In this document: piece after piece, positions 17,672-63,057 of the stretch
How positions within the stretch are numbered: position 1 is the first letter of the stretch
Layout: every line of letters starts with the position of its first letter
DNA from: Candidatus Fermentibacterota bacterium
GTDB taxonomy: Bacteria > JAFGKV01
DNA length: 64,000 nt
Assembly (NCBI GenBank): GCA_016928395.1
Contig: JAFGKV010000147.1
Span: 88,425 to 152,424, forward strand
Reading direction: 5' to 3'
Notes under the pieces: generated by a model
The model's database searches: none
The model's input: the letters and a program-made list of their open reading frames with translations, nothing else
What the model was told of the DNA's origin: nothing
Position numbers and translations under genes: made by a program

Positions 17672-17971
17672 GGATCCTGCCTTGTGCCGTGGGTGAGCGA
17701 TGGAGCGTTGCCAAACACATAAGGGTATACTGACTCGGTGCCCGATGCAACCATTGCTTTCCCACGAGCAACCGCTCAGGCTGTTTGGGGTTTTGGATCG
17801 AGTGATGTTCGATCCAACGTGACGGACCGATGAACGAGAGGAGTCCCCGGTTCGTCTTTCGTGACTCCGTGTACGCCGGGCGCATTGAGGCTATGAGTCG
17901 TGACTAGTATGGGTAGCTTGAGGAGGACATGTGACGCAGTGTCGTGCACCAGGAGCATCCGGGGAGATTCC
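17672..17971. other. Divergent metG/hypF intergenic region
   Basis: 300 bp upstream of both metG and hypF. It holds the hairpin at 17793-17817 and an imperfect hairpin of GGAGTC and GACTCC. A weak TTGCAT / TATACC pair faces metG, with a short spacer of 15 bp. No gene is supported. Confidence 0.5.
17793..17817. promoter_or_regulatory. Perfect 9-bp hairpin between metG and hypF
   Basis: TTGGATCGA (17793-17801), loop of 7, TCGATCCAA (17809-17817). It lies in the shared upstream region of two divergent genes. As DNA it could be a regulator site, and as RNA it would be a hairpin in the metG leader if transcription starts to its right. No T-box sequence is near. Confidence 0.45.
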
Positions 17972-20323
17972 GTGGTAAGACGAACCCTCATGGTGCGTGG
18001 CGTGGTCCAAGGAGTGGGGTTTCGCCCCACGGTGTATCGGTGTGCCCTGAGCCGGCGGGTGGCGGGGTGGGTACGGAATCGTTCTGACGGGCTCGAAATC
18101 GCCGTGGAGGGCGATGAACGAACAGTTGCCGGATTCATCAGAGACGTGATCGATCATCCTCCACCGTGCGCTCGAGTCACGGCCGTGGAGATTGAGGATG
18201 CGGAGCCGGTTGGAGAGGAGGGCTTCACGATTCTGCCAAGCCTGACCGTCGCAGGCAATACGCTGTGCCCGGCGGATCTGGCGACCTGCGATGCGTGTTT
18301 CGGCGAACTGTTCGACCCTCGGGACCGCCGGTTCCGCTATCCGTTCATCAACTGCACGGACTGCGGCCCTCGATTCAGCGCCGTGGTCACGCTGCCCTAT
18401 GACCGGCCTTCCACCAGCATGGCGTGTTTTCCCATGTGCCCACTCTGCAGCGCTGAGTATCATGACCCGCTCAACCGGCGGTACCATGCCCAACCGAACG
18501 CCTGTGCCGAGTGCGGCCCGAAAGTGTGGCTGGTGGATGGGGCCGGACAACCTCTGGTTTCAGACGATCCGGTGGGAACCCTTGCCTCAATGCTCCGGCA
18601 GGGATTCCTGGCGGCCATCAAGGGCATAGGGGGGTTCCACCTGGCAGCCGATGCCACCGATGAAGCCTCGGTGGCCCGCTTGCGCCGGCGAAAGGGCCGC
18701 GATGCCAAGCCGCTGGCTGTCATGGTGGCTGACCTCGAGTGGGGCCGCCGTTGCGGCGTCATTGATGACCAGGCCGAGGCGATTCTGGTATCACCGGCAC
18801 GCCCCATTGTCGTGGTCGATGCCGTAATGGATGGCCCGTTGGCCCCTTCCATCGCACCGGGGATCGGCACCGTGGGGATCATGCTGCCCTACAGCCCGAT
18901 TCATCATCTTCTGTTCCGTGACCGTGCCCAGACACTGCCCCCCTTGGTCATGACCAGCGGGAATCTGAGCGACGAACCCATCGCTATCGGCAATCGGGAG
19001 GCCATAGGGAGACTTGGGCGATGCGCCGACATCATGCTCCTGCACGATCGCGATATCGTGGCTCGAGCGGATGATTCCGTGATGCAACACCACCGGCACG
19101 GCGCGGTGTTCATTCGCCGCTCTCGCGGCCATGTGCCAGAGCCCCTGCCCCTTCCCTCGGATATGCCGCCCTCGTTGGGTACGGGGGCCTATCTCAAGGC
19201 AACTCCTTGCCTTGTCTCGGGGCGCCAGGCGTTCCTTGGCCAACACGTTGGTGACTTGTCGACCCTGGAAGGCGTTCGGTTTCATGCTCTGGCGATCGAT
19301 GCGCTTGAGAGCCTCATGCGAATCACCCCGGAGGCCATCGGGTGTGACCTGAACCCGGATTTTCCTTCCAGTGTGTGGGCGAGGCGCCATTGTATGAGGG
19401 TTGAGCCCGTGCAACACCATCACGCCCACGTGGTAGCGGCGGGCCTGGATCATGGCCTGGAGCCTCCCCTCTTGGGGTTGGCCATCGACGGGACTGGCCT
19501 GGGGACCGACGGTTCGATCTGGGGGTGCGAGCTTGTGCTGGCGGATCGCGTGGATTTCAAGAGGCTTGGTCATCTCCTCCCTCTCCCTCTTCCCGGAGGC
19601 GATGCGGCCGTACACGAAACCTGGCGTGTCGCGATCGGGCTTCTGCATGCTTGCTTCGGAGAGGCCGCGCAGGGCCTTCTGGAGCAGGTGCTCTGTGGCG
19701 TTGACATTGCACACAAACGGCTCGTGCTGGAGGCGGTGCATCGGGGAGCCCACACGCCGATGCAGACGTCGTGTGGGAGGCTCTTCGATGCTGCAGCCGC
19801 CCTTACTGGCGTGTGCACTGTCGCTCGATTTGAGGCAGAGGCGGCCATGATGTTGGAGCGGGCTGCAGGATTCGGGGCATATCGCCACGCAAAGGCGCGG
19901 CCGTTTCCCATGGGGATGCTGGAAGATGCCCCCTTGGTGTTGGATCCGCGCCCCATGGTGAGGGAGCTGACAGGTCGGCTTTTGGCCGGCGATGGACCGG
20001 AGATCCTGGCCAGGAGGTTTCATGACACCATGGTTCACGGTCTTTCCGGAATGGTCATTCGGTGTGCTTCTGGAGCCGGGTTCGACACGGTGGTTTTGAC
20101 CGGAGGGTGTATGCTCAACCGTTATCTCGCGGACGGTCTTACCCGAGAGATGGAGCGGGCCGGCCTCCGGGCTTTGGTGCCACGTCGGATTCCGGTCGGG
20201 GATGGGGGCATCAGCCTGGGCCAAGCCGCAGTGGCTGGCTGGCGGTTGAGCACCGATGAGGTTGACAGGGTTCGGGATTCGGTGGGGGCTGAGCAGGTTC
20301 GGAATCGAGCCCACGCGGGATGA
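17972..20323 (+). CDS. hypF: Carbamoyltransferase HypF, [NiFe]-hydrogenase maturation
   Basis: 783 residues from the GTG at 17972 (GGGGAG 5 nt upstream), chosen because the acylphosphatase domain begins at once; GTG 17900 and ATG 17909 would add 24 or 21 residues of no known domain. Order: acylphosphatase (GVVQGVGFRP, ~10-19), two zinc-finger pairs in the Cys-rich ~99-182 stretch (CDAC, CTDC, CPLC, CAEC), YrdC-like domain (~190-370), Kae1-like domain with HHHAHV. It converts carbamoyl phosphate to the thiocyanate on HypE that becomes the CN ligands of the hydrogenase Fe site. HypCDE and hydrogenase genes are not in the window. It is followed by a perfect hairpin (20341-20374). Confidence 0.95.
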   Translation: MVRRTLMVRGVVQGVGFRPTVYRCALSRRVAGWVRNRSDGLEIAVEGDERTVAGFIRDVIDHPPPCARVTAVEIEDAEPVGEEGFTILPSLTVAGNTLCPADLATCDACFGELFDPRDRRFRYPFINCTDCGPRFSAVVTLPYDRPSTSMACFPMCPLCSAEYHDPLNRRYHAQPNACAECGPKVWLVDGAGQPLVSDDPVGTLASMLRQGFLAAIKGIGGFHLAADATDEASVARLRRRKGRDAKPLAVMVADLEWGRRCGVIDDQAEAILVSPARPIVVVDAVMDGPLAPSIAPGIGTVGIMLPYSPIHHLLFRDRAQTLPPLVMTSGNLSDEPIAIGNREAIGRLGRCADIMLLHDRDIVARADDSVMQHHRHGAVFIRRSRGHVPEPLPLPSDMPPSLGTGAYLKATPCLVSGRQAFLGQHVGDLSTLEGVRFHALAIDALESLMRITPEAIGCDLNPDFPSSVWARRHCMRVEPVQHHHAHVVAAGLDHGLEPPLLGLAIDGTGLGTDGSIWGCELVLADRVDFKRLGHLLPLPLPGGDAAVHETWRVAIGLLHACFGEAAQGLLEQVLCGVDIAHKRLVLEAVHRGAHTPMQTSCGRLFDAAAALTGVCTVARFEAEAAMMLERAAGFGAYRHAKARPFPMGMLEDAPLVLDPRPMVRELTGRLLAGDGPEILARRFHDTMVHGLSGMVIRCASGAGFDTVVLTGGCMLNRYLADGLTREMERAGLRALVPRRIPVGDGGISLGQAAVAGWRLSTDEVDRVRDSVGAEQVRNRAHAG

Positions 20324-20555: not shown

Positions 20556-20723
20556 ATGCCCACCTACGATTTCCACTGCAGTTCATGCGGCAAGGACTTC
20601 AGCACAATCCTCTCCATTGCCGCCAGGGGTGAAGACGCCATTGTATGCCCCGCCTGCGGTTCCAAGAATGTCGAGCAGCAGTTCACCTCTGTGTCGGTGA
20701 AGACCGGCAAGAAGACCTGGTAG
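20556..20723 (+). CDS. FmdB-family zinc-ribbon protein
   Basis: 55 residues. AGGAGG lies 9 nt before the ATG. Residues 1-40 form the FmdB/CxxC zinc ribbon: MPTYDFHCSSCG, then CPACGS, four Cys binding one zinc. The family is widespread, small and usually of unknown function, sometimes proposed as a regulator or a protein-binding zinc knuckle. It starts 33 bp upstream of the candidate selenoprotein and probably shares its transcript. The rest is a short charged C-terminus (VSVKTGKKTW). Confidence 0.8.
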   Translation: MPTYDFHCSSCGKDFSTILSIAARGEDAIVCPACGSKNVEQQFTSVSVKTGKKTW

Positions 20724-20756
20724 CACCAGGGCTCATCTCTTCGGAAGGAGGCCTCC

Positions 20757-21809
20757 ATGAGAGTGCCGGCGGTCTTGCTGTTCCTGTTTTTGGCGATGTC
20801 GGTGCAGGCTGCCAACGTTTTCGTGTATGATCACGACGACGGTGCCACGCTGACTGACCCGTTGGGTGCCGGCGTTGTCGGTACCCAATTCGCCGTGGTC
20901 CGGGCTCTGCAGGCATCAGGGCATCAGGTGACCACCTCAACAGTGCTGCCCACGAACCTGAGCCCGTATGATGCCGTCTTTGTGCTCACCGCCTGGGGTA
21001 CCGGGTGAGGTTCGTGTATCTCACTTGAGCAGGCTGCTCAAGTCACTCTTATGAGCTACTTGGATTCCGGCGGTTCGGTGTATCTTGAAGGCGTTGAGAT
21101 CGGCTACTATCACGCCCCAGGGCAAGCCTACAACTACGGACTCTGGAACTACCTAGGCACTCTCTGGCTGGGTGATGGGAACTCCACGAACAATGTGAGC
21201 CTCGTGAAAGGTCAGAACGTGTGGTTCGGTACGGGGATGCAGTTCGGCTATCCCTACGGCCAACTCCCCGACTCCTGGGTTGACATTCTGGGCCCTGCGG
21301 GTACGGGCAGCGCGCAGCCTTTCGTTGATCAGACCAACCAGGGCCGGGTCGTTTCCTACATCCCGTCCGGCCAGCCGTGGCGTACCATTACCAGCGGGGT
21401 ATGTTTCTGTGCATTCAGCGAGGATGCGCCCCTGTCTACCCAGCAGCGCCTGATGGCGAGGATCATGGGCTTCTTGCTGGCCGAGGATGCGATTCCTCCT
21501 GCGGCTGTTGTGGACGTAACGGCCCAGGTCGTTGGAGTATCTTTGGAGCTCTCATGGGCTCCGGTCACGCAGGATTCGCAGGGTAATCCTGAGAGTATGG
21601 ATTCCTACGTGGTGGAACGAGGCACCTCACCGAAAGGGAGATGGACCCCCATCGGCGTCGCAGCGAATCCCGGATTCACCGACGGTGGTTCAGACATCGG
21701 TGATCCTGCTGTGAATAGCTACTATCGTATCAGGGCCGTCGACACCAGTGGGAATGTGGGAGCGGAAGCGCTCGCCGGCGAGTTCGACTTCGCTCTGAAT
21801 ACTCAATAG
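20757..21809 (+). CDS. Secreted FnIII protein, in-frame TGA: candidate selenoprotein
   Basis: 350 codons from the ATG at 20757. An SD, GGAAGGAGG, precedes it. A signal peptide (~1-19, ending V-Q-A) is followed by a globular domain (~20-235) of a Rossmann or class I glutamine amidotransferase-like appearance (VFVYDHDDGATLTDP, then SGGSVYLEG), and a fibronectin type III domain (~250-350, ending GEFDFAL). A TGA at 21006-21008 (codon 84) crosses the frame, yet translation continues with no other stop for 266 codons. The residues after it are G-S-C, so a Sec would make U84-G-S-C87. A hairpin suited to SECIS follows (21023-21043). Cys216 and Cys218 (C-F-C) are the other thiols. Alternatives: nonsense mutation or base error. 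Substrate unknown. Confidence 0.6.
21023..21043 (+). promoter_or_regulatory. SECIS-like hairpin downstream of in-frame TGA
   Basis: ACTTGAGCA (21023-21031), loop GGC (21032-21034), TGCTCAAGT (21035-21043): a perfect 9-bp stem. The loop begins 23 nt after the TGA and opens with G. Bacterial SECIS elements are described as a stem-loop with the apical loop about 16-37 nt after the UGA and a G among the first loop bases. The GCA-GGC-TGC top resembles the GCAGGUCUGC top of the E. coli fdhF element. Confidence 0.5.
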
Positions 21810-61038: not shown

Positions 61039-63057
61039 ATGCCCGGGTTCAGAATCAGACCTCCGTTCATCGGACTACTGGGCATCCTGCTTTCCGCTTC
61101 GTCTCTTGATGGGCAGCCCTGGGAGCAAGACGACCTTCTCTTCAATCCCAGCGGTGTTCCCTCTCTTGCGTTTTCCCAGCCACGTTTCGCCGATCTGGAT
61201 GCTGACGGGGATTTTGATTTGATTCTCGGCAGTATCGATGAAGCACCACTCTATTTCATCAACGACGGAAGCGCCACCAGCCCGTCTTTTCACCTGGAGC
61301 CGGAGGTTTTCTGGCCCGTTTCAGCCCTCGATGCCGAAGTCGGCGTGTGCGCGGATCTCGATAGCGACCTTGACCTTGATTTTGTCAGCGGTGGTTTCTC
61401 CGGGCTGAATCTCTTTGAGAACATCGGTGACGTTTCCCAACCCTCATTTCACAAGGTCGACGGTTTCTTCCAAGGGATGACGGTGGGCTACAATCCCGTA
61501 CCGACGTGCGGCGATATTGATGGCGACGGCGACCACGACCTGCTTGTCGGTCTCAGCGAGGATGGTCGTCTGAAGTTCTATGTCAATACGGGCACGCCTG
61601 ATTCGGCCGTCTTCTCCGAACTCCAATCCCAGATGTGGTTTGACGTCGGGCTGTACGCATACCCCTGGTTCGCCGATCTGGATACCGATGATGATCTCGA
61701 TCTGCTAGTGGGTCGAGATGGGACGGGGTTTTTCTACTATCGCAATGTGGGCGACGTAACTGCATGGCAGTGGCAACCCGACAATGCAGTGTTCTCAGGG
61801 CTGGCACACACCACATACTGGAACTCGCCATGTCTGGTCGATCTCTCGGGCGACGGTAACAAGGACCTCGTCTATGGCACGGCGGCCGGGCCTCTGAACT
61901 ACTACATCAATACCGGTAGCCCCTCAGCTCCCACGTGGACGGTGGAAAGCGGCCCTTTCGGCGGGGTGATCGACGTAGGAGGCGCCAGTTCGCCGTTTCT
62001 GTTTGATTTCGATGGTGATGGTGATCTGGATCTGGTGAGTGGCACCCAACTGGGGAATATCAAGTACTACCAAAATACCGGTTCCGCCCAGACGCCGGCC
62101 TGGGAGCCCGACCATGCTCGTTTCAGCGCCATCGATCACTCCATCTACTCGGCGATATGCCTTGGCGACGCCGATGGGGATTCACTGCCCGATGCCGTGG
62201 TCGGCGACATGAATGGCCAGCTCTTCTTTCACAGAAACACGGGCACAAGCTTTGTCTTTGACGAGTCCGTCCTCGCGGGTATCGATGTGGGCTACACATC
62301 GGTGCCGCGACTGACCGACATGGATGCCGACGGAGATCTCGATCTCGTGGCAGGGAATGAGGCAGGCAATCTGTTCTACTTCCGAAACACGGGCGATGCC
62401 GAATGGCCCGAATGGACTCTGGCGCCGGGCTTTTTCGGCGGGATCGACGTGGGGAGCTACTGTTCTCTCACCATGGGCGACCTGGATGGCGATGGCGATA
62501 GGGATCTTGTGACGGGCAACATCTCTCACGAAATCCAGTTCTTCAGGAATGTCGCGGGTATGTGGATTGAGGATCCAACCGTCGTGGCCGGGATCTTTGC
62601 GGGACAGAATGCGGCGCCCGCGTTTGGCGATTTGGATGAGGATGGCGACCTGGATCTCACCATCGGCAACTATGAAGGCACGTTCAACTACTACCAGAAC
62701 ATGATTTCCGTGGATTCGACCCCACCCGAGGCCGTGTCGGACCTCACGGTTGCTTTGGCAGGGAGTTTGTTCGCGCTTCAATGGTCGGCGGTGACGGCCG
62801 ACACGGCCGGTGCGCCGGAGACGGTAGATCGCTATGTCGTGTATCGAGGTGACTGGGCTTATTTCGTGCCCACGGCCGCGGAATCGCTGGGCGCCACCTC
62901 CGGCACCAGCTATGCCGACAGTAGCTCGTTCAGCCCATCGGTGAACGTGTCGTATCTTGTGAAAGCCCTTGACGCCAACGGCAACTGGTCGGCCGAATCA
63001 AACAGGGTGGGCGAGTTCGATCTGGAGCTGTTGTCAGCCAAGGGCGCGGCTCGGTAG
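61039..63057 (+). CDS. Secreted FG-GAP/VCBS repeat protein with FnIII end
   Basis: 672 residues from the ATG at 61039; GGAGG lies 5 nt upstream, and the ATG at 61027 would overlap it. Signal peptide ~1-25. About eight repeats of ~60 residues each have the calcium-binding loop D-x-D-x-D-G-D (for example DLDADGDFDLILG, DIDGDGDHDLLVG, DMDADGDLDLVAG), the FG-GAP/VCBS blades of a beta-propeller. Then a FnIII-like domain (~565-660) ends in VGEFDLEL, close to the end of the candidate selenoprotein. Such proteins bind cells or polymers outside. Calcium binding is inferred from the loops. No LPXTG or T9SS signal. Confidence 0.92.
   Translation: MPGFRIRPPFIGLLGILLSASSLDGQPWEQDDLLFNPSGVPSLAFSQPRFADLDADGDFDLILGSIDEAPLYFINDGSATSPSFHLEPEVFWPVSALDAEVGVCADLDSDLDLDFVSGGFSGLNLFENIGDVSQPSFHKVDGFFQGMTVGYNPVPTCGDIDGDGDHDLLVGLSEDGRLKFYVNTGTPDSAVFSELQSQMWFDVGLYAYPWFADLDTDDDLDLLVGRDGTGFFYYRNVGDVTAWQWQPDNAVFSGLAHTTYWNSPCLVDLSGDGNKDLVYGTAAGPLNYYINTGSPSAPTWTVESGPFGGVIDVGGASSPFLFDFDGDGDLDLVSGTQLGNIKYYQNTGSAQTPAWEPDHARFSAIDHSIYSAICLGDADGDSLPDAVVGDMNGQLFFHRNTGTSFVFDESVLAGIDVGYTSVPRLTDMDADGDLDLVAGNEAGNLFYFRNTGDAEWPEWTLAPGFFGGIDVGSYCSLTMGDLDGDGDRDLVTGNISHEIQFFRNVAGMWIEDPTVVAGIFAGQNAAPAFGDLDEDGDLDLTIGNYEGTFNYYQNMISVDSTPPEAVSDLTVALAGSLFALQWSAVTADTAGAPETVDRYVVYRGDWAYFVPTAAESLGATSGTSYADSSSFSPSVNVSYLVKALDANGNWSAESNRVGEFDLELLSAKGAAR

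Follow-up and report, generated by a model that had tools for sequence, protein, structure and literature searches.

The locus and its reading frame

The window, that is, the whole stretch of 64,000 nucleotides that was analysed, carries on its forward strand the genes and features collected in Table 1. Direct reading bore out two statements of the initial annotation, namely that one frame is crossed by a single in-frame TGA, at codon 84, and that Gly-Ser-Cys directly follows this TGA. The translation across the TGA runs MRVPAVLLFLFLAMSVQAANVFVYD...VLTAWGTG-U-GSCISLEQ... and ends at the TAG. The pair hypF-fmdB precedes the gene in three genomes of the window's lineage, and the fmdB-type gene also adjoins the homologues L032 and L033, found respectively in a genome of the same genus (G001) and in one of the same family (G002).

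Table 1. Features at and around the predicted selenoprotein gene (positions in the window).
Feature	Position	Strand	Remarks
hypF, hydrogenase maturation carbamoyltransferase	17900-20323	+	Same order in G001 and G002
fmdB-type zinc-ribbon gene (Zn_ribbon_8)	20556-20723	+	Directly upstream of the selenoprotein gene
Ribosome-binding site GGAAGGAGG	20743-20751	+	Read from the sequence, 5' of the ATG
Predicted selenoprotein gene	20757-21809	+	350 aa if the TGA (Sec84) is read through; ATG 20757, stop TAG 21807-21809
Putative signal peptide, residues about 1-19	20757-20813	+	Judged by eye: MRVPAVLLFLFLAMSVQA, followed by A
GATase1/ThuA-like domain with predicted Sec	20811-21482	+	AlphaFold2 and VIA-align
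TGA, predicted selenocysteine codon 84	21006-21008	+	Column conservation in homologues
Cys87, likely resolving Cys (UxxC)	21015-21017	+	Cys near Sec in all 50 distinct sequences
Putative SECIS apical hairpin, 9 bp	21023-21043	+	Folding and covariation; loop GGC 21032-21034
Cys216-Phe-Cys218 motif	21402-21410	+	Specific to the window's genus; kept in L032 and L034
C-terminal module	21483-21806	+	Repeated in further ORFs of secreted type in this genome

The N-terminus had been described as a signal peptide; it reads so by eye and most homologues also have a hydrophobic N-terminus, from which we infer that the protein is exported. As to the "FnIII end" proposed earlier, a C-terminal module is indeed there, but it gave no match to Pfam fn3 at E up to 1, nor to any other Pfam model. 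The module is found elsewhere in the genome in about ten ORFs, with some 30-44% identity. One of them is a 676-aa ORF of the window itself (L023, 61027-63057), whose module, at 62701-63030, is 38% identical to that of the predicted selenoprotein.

The orthologue L032 is 68% identical to the window protein and has a TGA at the same site, also within U-G-S-C. Between both genes, dN was 0.12 before the TGA and 0.18 after it (both within the domain), and 0.35 in the C-terminal module, with dS values of 1.0-1.9, that is, near saturation. As judged from these substitutions, purifying selection acts on both halves of the gene, before and after the TGA.

Homologues, the TGA column and the hairpin

A homologue search of genome and viral contigs with the single protein gave no match, and no homologue was found in phage and plasmid records. 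A four-row profile recovered the family where the single protein had not: scanned over 84,980 species genomes, it detected relatives with the TGA in Candidatus Sabulitectum (Fermentibacterota) and in Cloacimonadota. In whole-genome searches, the form with one TGA occurred in 18 of 42 genomes of the phylum Fermentibacterota and in 44 of 124 of the phylum Cloacimonadota. In the loci retrieved, 52 homologous sequences (50 of them distinct), from the window's genus, Fermentibacterota and Cloacimonadota, have a TGA at exactly one alignment column, which is among the most conserved of the domain. Two sequences from Cloacimonadota (L095 and L105) show Cys (TGC) at that column, so the comparison at residue 84 favoured the initial annotation. 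Arg (AGA) occurs in L057 and L033. As the same TGA appears in many independent assemblies, a sequencing error is excluded in practice.

The relatives closest to the window include forms in decay. In G002, L033 (G002:C197:16702-20184) is a remnant located after hypF-fmdB, which has lost the N-terminus, has AGA at the Sec site and Ile-Phe-Gly in place of Cys216-Phe-Cys218, and contains the only other TGA, three columns away from the Sec column. G001 has, besides the orthologue, a paralogue with about 61% identity and its TGA in C-U-G-A-S (L034, G001:C220:17958-20486). The frame of this paralogue breaks after residue 248, and the gene adjoins a transposase fragment that was assigned by eye to the IS630 type.

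More distant cousins have neither Sec nor Cys at the column; among them, 15 matches in Calditrichota show no TGA. In the tree, a single clade (SH-aLRT 99) unites L057 and the two Cys forms with all the TGA forms; the number of state changes was 4, versus 20 in shuffles. It looks as if two independent Sec-to-Cys changes and one Sec-to-Arg change took place within the clade. Given the rarity of Cys homologues and the absence of both residues from the distant cousins, the clade seems to have started out with Sec, and not to have acquired it by exchange within a Cys family.

Concerning the residues around the predicted Sec, a Cys was found 1 or 3 residues away in every one of the 50 distinct sequences; the overall Cys frequency in the Sec-domain proteins is 1.2%. 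Its position was -3 in 29 sequences (CxxU, Cloacimonadota), -1 in 19 (C-U, the motif of Fermentibacterota) and +3 in two (UxxC, the window protein and L032). The U-G-S-C noticed at first is thus present in the window protein, but UxxC does not hold as the motif of the family; UGSC is a detail of lineage found only in the window's genus. The Cys-replacement homologues retain CxxC, and a partner Cys that shifts between clades would suit a redox pair.

The hairpin downstream of the TGA was confirmed as ACTTGAGCA-GGC-TGCTCAAGT, with the 9 bp and the loop GGC initially given, but the distance of 23 nt reported for it is that of the loop start, the stem starting 14 nt after the TGA. When positions 21006-21060 were folded alone, the energy was -19.8 kcal/mol (z = -2.47), a value equalled in 4 of 200 shuffles; the hairpin itself was matched by 3% of the synonymous-codon versions. 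Taken without homologues, the window hairpin is only suggestive.

In the homologues, the hairpin search was limited to loops starting 18-25 nt after the UGA. The mean energies were -10.7, -8.7 and -5.9 kcal/mol in the window lineage, Fermentibacterota and Cloacimonadota, respectively, versus about -2 for synonymous-codon nulls, and in each of the three clades the observed mean was reached by none of 400 null sets. The loop starts mostly 20-23 nt 3' of the UGA; the best hairpins of L106 and L119 are farther away, at 29 nt. In the stem, 5 of 7 pairs changed on both sides and 97.9% of the cells were paired (100% in Cloacimonadota, where both sides changed in 25 cells). The covariation score was reached by none of 500 shuffles, and pairing fell to 31-54% when the alignment of the stem was slid. 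The element thus appears as a SECIS-like hairpin located just downstream of the UGA, with a G opening the apical loop, and most loops (GGC, GTC, GTG, GTT, GGTC, CGTGA) agree with the loop criterion for bacterial SECIS (PMC2398784, Figure 7 legend). The hairpin has been lost in L057, where TGA is replaced by AGA, and is still present in L033 (AGA) and L105 (Cys form), as expected if the losses of Sec there are recent. Once the homologues are added, we take this comparative evidence of the hairpin to be decisive.

Selenium machinery, fold and genomic context

The genome assembly of the window (4.79 Mb, 343 contigs, 94% complete) contains selB (342 bits, cut-off 242), a tRNA-Sec with anticodon UCA (76.8 bits, cut-off 47) and two selD genes. 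One of these is itself crossed by an in-frame TGA (context ...TAAGUAAK...) and is therefore a second predicted selenoprotein of this genome. No selA was found above cut-off in this 94%-complete draft, while both relatives, G001 and G002, have it (464 and 480 bits), and the simplest reading is a gap in the draft. So, of the Sec machinery that the initial annotation proposed to look for, selB, selC and selD were found, and selA is known from the relatives only. The Sec-containing SelD (AAGUAAK) lies in a selenium-metabolism cluster (G000:C22; L001, L019) where, by eye, a YeeE/YedE-like transporter and TusA-like, cysteine-desulfurase-like and small DUF3343-like proteins are recognized. The second SelD (G000:C199, L018) is fused to a NifS-type cysteine desulfurase.

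In Cloacimonadota, tRNA-Sec was found in 39 of 44 TGA-bearing genomes versus 22 of 80 others (Fisher p = 2.7e-11, a value that ignores shared ancestry); the five TGA-bearing genomes in which no tRNA-Sec was found are drafts of unstated completeness. In three cases, the tRNA-Sec gene lies near the TGA gene on the same contig, at about 0.4 kb (G127), 0.3 kb (G109) and 1.7 kb (G128), when by simple arithmetic about 0.06 of the 39 genomes (some 2.5 Mb each) would be expected by chance to have it within 2 kb. On those contigs (G127:C163, G109:C420, G128:C58), selC and the selenoprotein gene appear as if travelling together. In G156, a NifS-SelD fusion gene (L135:2543-4750), which the fusion in the window's genome resembles, is directly upstream of the Sec gene.

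The domain that contains the predicted Sec was modelled with AlphaFold2. A run with 7 sequences (pLDDT 58) was set aside; a later one with 49 family members gave a pLDDT of 94.1 and a pTM of 0.92. The best match in VIA-align was 3soz (Z 17.4 over 190 residues), and the top matches were GATase1-like, ThuA-like and related domains (Z 17.4 to 14, 175-193 of 224 residues). The domain is therefore assigned with confidence, as a model-based prediction, to the class I glutamine amidotransferase-like (GATase1/ThuA) fold. Searches of the 49 members against Pfam and NCBIfam gave no family model for it, and a PDB sequence search with the family profile returned chance-level matches only. In the model, Sec is residue 66, at the start of a helix (67-70) and in the loop that follows strand beta-3 (55-60). 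At the elbow after beta-4, assigned by topology, the nucleophile Cys is absent, the region reading YLEGVEIGY, with E111 and G112 conserved. From strand order and sequence pattern, the Sec loop would take the place that the oxyanion loop has in class I glutamine amidotransferases, and the nucleophile Cys and the catalytic His of these enzymes would map to YLEGVE and Cys218, respectively.

The TIGR04183 type IX sorting domain was found above cut-off in eight of the scanned Cloacimonadota proteins, including two Cys forms, and in one Fermentibacterota member (L130); the window protein has no T9SS sorting domain (TIGR04183/PF18962). In homologues, the Sec domain occurs together with Ig-like, MAM and choice-of-anchor domains. 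The comparison of gene neighbourhoods across phyla revealed no common neighbour. In five Sabulitectum-type loci (L124, L125, L127, L131 and L132), the gene next to the Sec gene encodes an outer-membrane protein, some 710-720 aa long, that was classed by eye as patatin-type.

Reading of the TGA and meaning of the family

Taken together, the TGA column, the Cys replacements, the covarying hairpin and the Sec machinery support the original reading of a secreted Sec-containing protein. That TGA 84 encodes selenocysteine, the gene being a selenoprotein gene, we hold to be practically certain as a prediction. For the explanation as a whole, namely an exported selenoprotein with a probable redox role, whose UGA 84 would be decoded by SelB and tRNA-Sec, our confidence is high. 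The redox role outside the cytoplasm, taken by itself, is favoured only moderately.

Within the selenoprotein reading, Sec could instead bind a metal, or store or carry selenium. This seems rather unlikely, even if it deserves to be weighed: C-U and CxxU could ligate metals, selC or selD adjoins the gene in four Cloacimonadota genomes, and in three genomes the gene follows hypF-fmdB, of metal maturation. However, one Sec per protein speaks against storage, the spacing of the Cys differs by clade as in resolving Cys, and the Cys replacements keep CxxC.

Readthrough in which a standard residue (Arg, Trp or Cys) is inserted at the UGA, with the hairpin acting as a stimulator, is very improbable. 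Arg does occupy the column in L057 and L033, but these look like losses, L033 being truncated and L057 having neither the neighbouring Cys nor the hairpin. Besides, the genome has tRNA-Sec and SelB, two homologues have Cys, the distance and the loop G of the hairpin match bacterial SECIS, a Cys is always near Sec, and the TGA form tracks tRNA-Sec. A nonsense mutation, in a pseudogene or through an assembly error, has even less to recommend it. Decay does exist nearby, as seen in the remnant of G002 and the broken paralogue of G001, but independent assemblies from three phylum-level groups share the TGA, selection is purifying 3' of it and the hairpin covaries; this candidate was refuted by the conserved TGA column. 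Finally, two separate genes, for a short secreted peptide (20757-21008) and for another protein that begins at ATG 21051, are scarcely credible, even though both appear in the ORF list, since the Cys homologues L095 and L105 run uninterrupted through the site and one compact domain (pLDDT 94) is predicted across it.

Returning to the preferred reading, an exported redox selenoprotein, SelB and tRNA-Sec would insert selenocysteine at UGA 84, guided by the hairpin just downstream. Sec and the nearby Cys would probably form a reversible selenenylsulfide, and the protein would likely carry out a thiol/selenol redox reaction on an extracytoplasmic substrate in anaerobic bacteria. A former glutamine-amidotransferase pocket may have been adapted to redox chemistry, Sec being located in its oxyanion loop and Cys218 at the place of the catalytic His. 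Only tentatively, and with some doubt, it can be proposed that this is a cell-surface selenoenzyme family founded on Sec, with a rebuilt GATase pocket, type IX delivery to the surface in Cloacimonadota, and a function in extracellular selenium redox chemistry.

The catalogued prokaryotic selenoproteins (PMC13188914) are alike in the in-frame UGA, the bSECIS-like hairpin, the UxxC, CxxU or CU motifs and the Sec machinery, but the domain is in none of the 119 families and subfamilies of that 2026 inventory (Table 1 therein). With the UGSC-containing selenoprotein (NF041046) only the letters U-G-S-C are common, other members here having CxxUG or CUGD; the model did not match the window protein at E up to 10, nor any of the 49 members in NCBIfam. 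The CTP synthase C-terminal region-related selenoprotein (NF004836, GxUxG) also has a glutamine amidotransferase-type domain with Sec, but its motif suggests Sec in place of the nucleophile-elbow Cys, whereas here Sec is after beta-3 and the elbow is YLEGVE; no NCBIfam match to it came from the family. The overall fold is like that of 3soz, 3rht, 4jqs, the GH42 middle domain and the IFT52 N-terminus (Z 14-17 over 180-193 residues, 8-14% identity), yet compared with GATase1/ThuA-like domains the present one lacks the elbow nucleophile Cys, appears to be exported and has Sec after beta-3. GrdA, the glycine reductase selenoprotein A (PF04723), shares CxxU with the Cloacimonadota members, a likeness of motif only, as GrdA belongs to a cytoplasmic amino-acid reductase complex and PF04723 was not matched by the family. 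In the open-access article texts searched, nothing relevant was found linking selenoproteins to Cloacimonadota, Fermentibacteria or type IX secretion.

It would appear, therefore, that this family of exported selenoproteins is new, being absent from the catalogues compared. Of 169 genomes searched from the three lineages known to have it, at least 64 are carriers. It was overlooked because the TGA splits its genes, Cys homologues on which Sec/Cys-based finders could draw are nearly absent and no family library includes the domain. The deep-Sep method relies on a filter for homologues already known to contain Sec or Cys (PMC12013277); this family has almost none, which would explain why it went unnoticed. 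In this family, Sec would be ancestral to the whole clade, only rarely giving way to Cys or Arg, and would be placed in a GATase1-like fold, not in the usual thioredoxin-like folds. If the sorting domains are functional, Sec would be outside the cell. Uncultured anaerobes of many phyla would also gain a testable selenium-dependent surface function.
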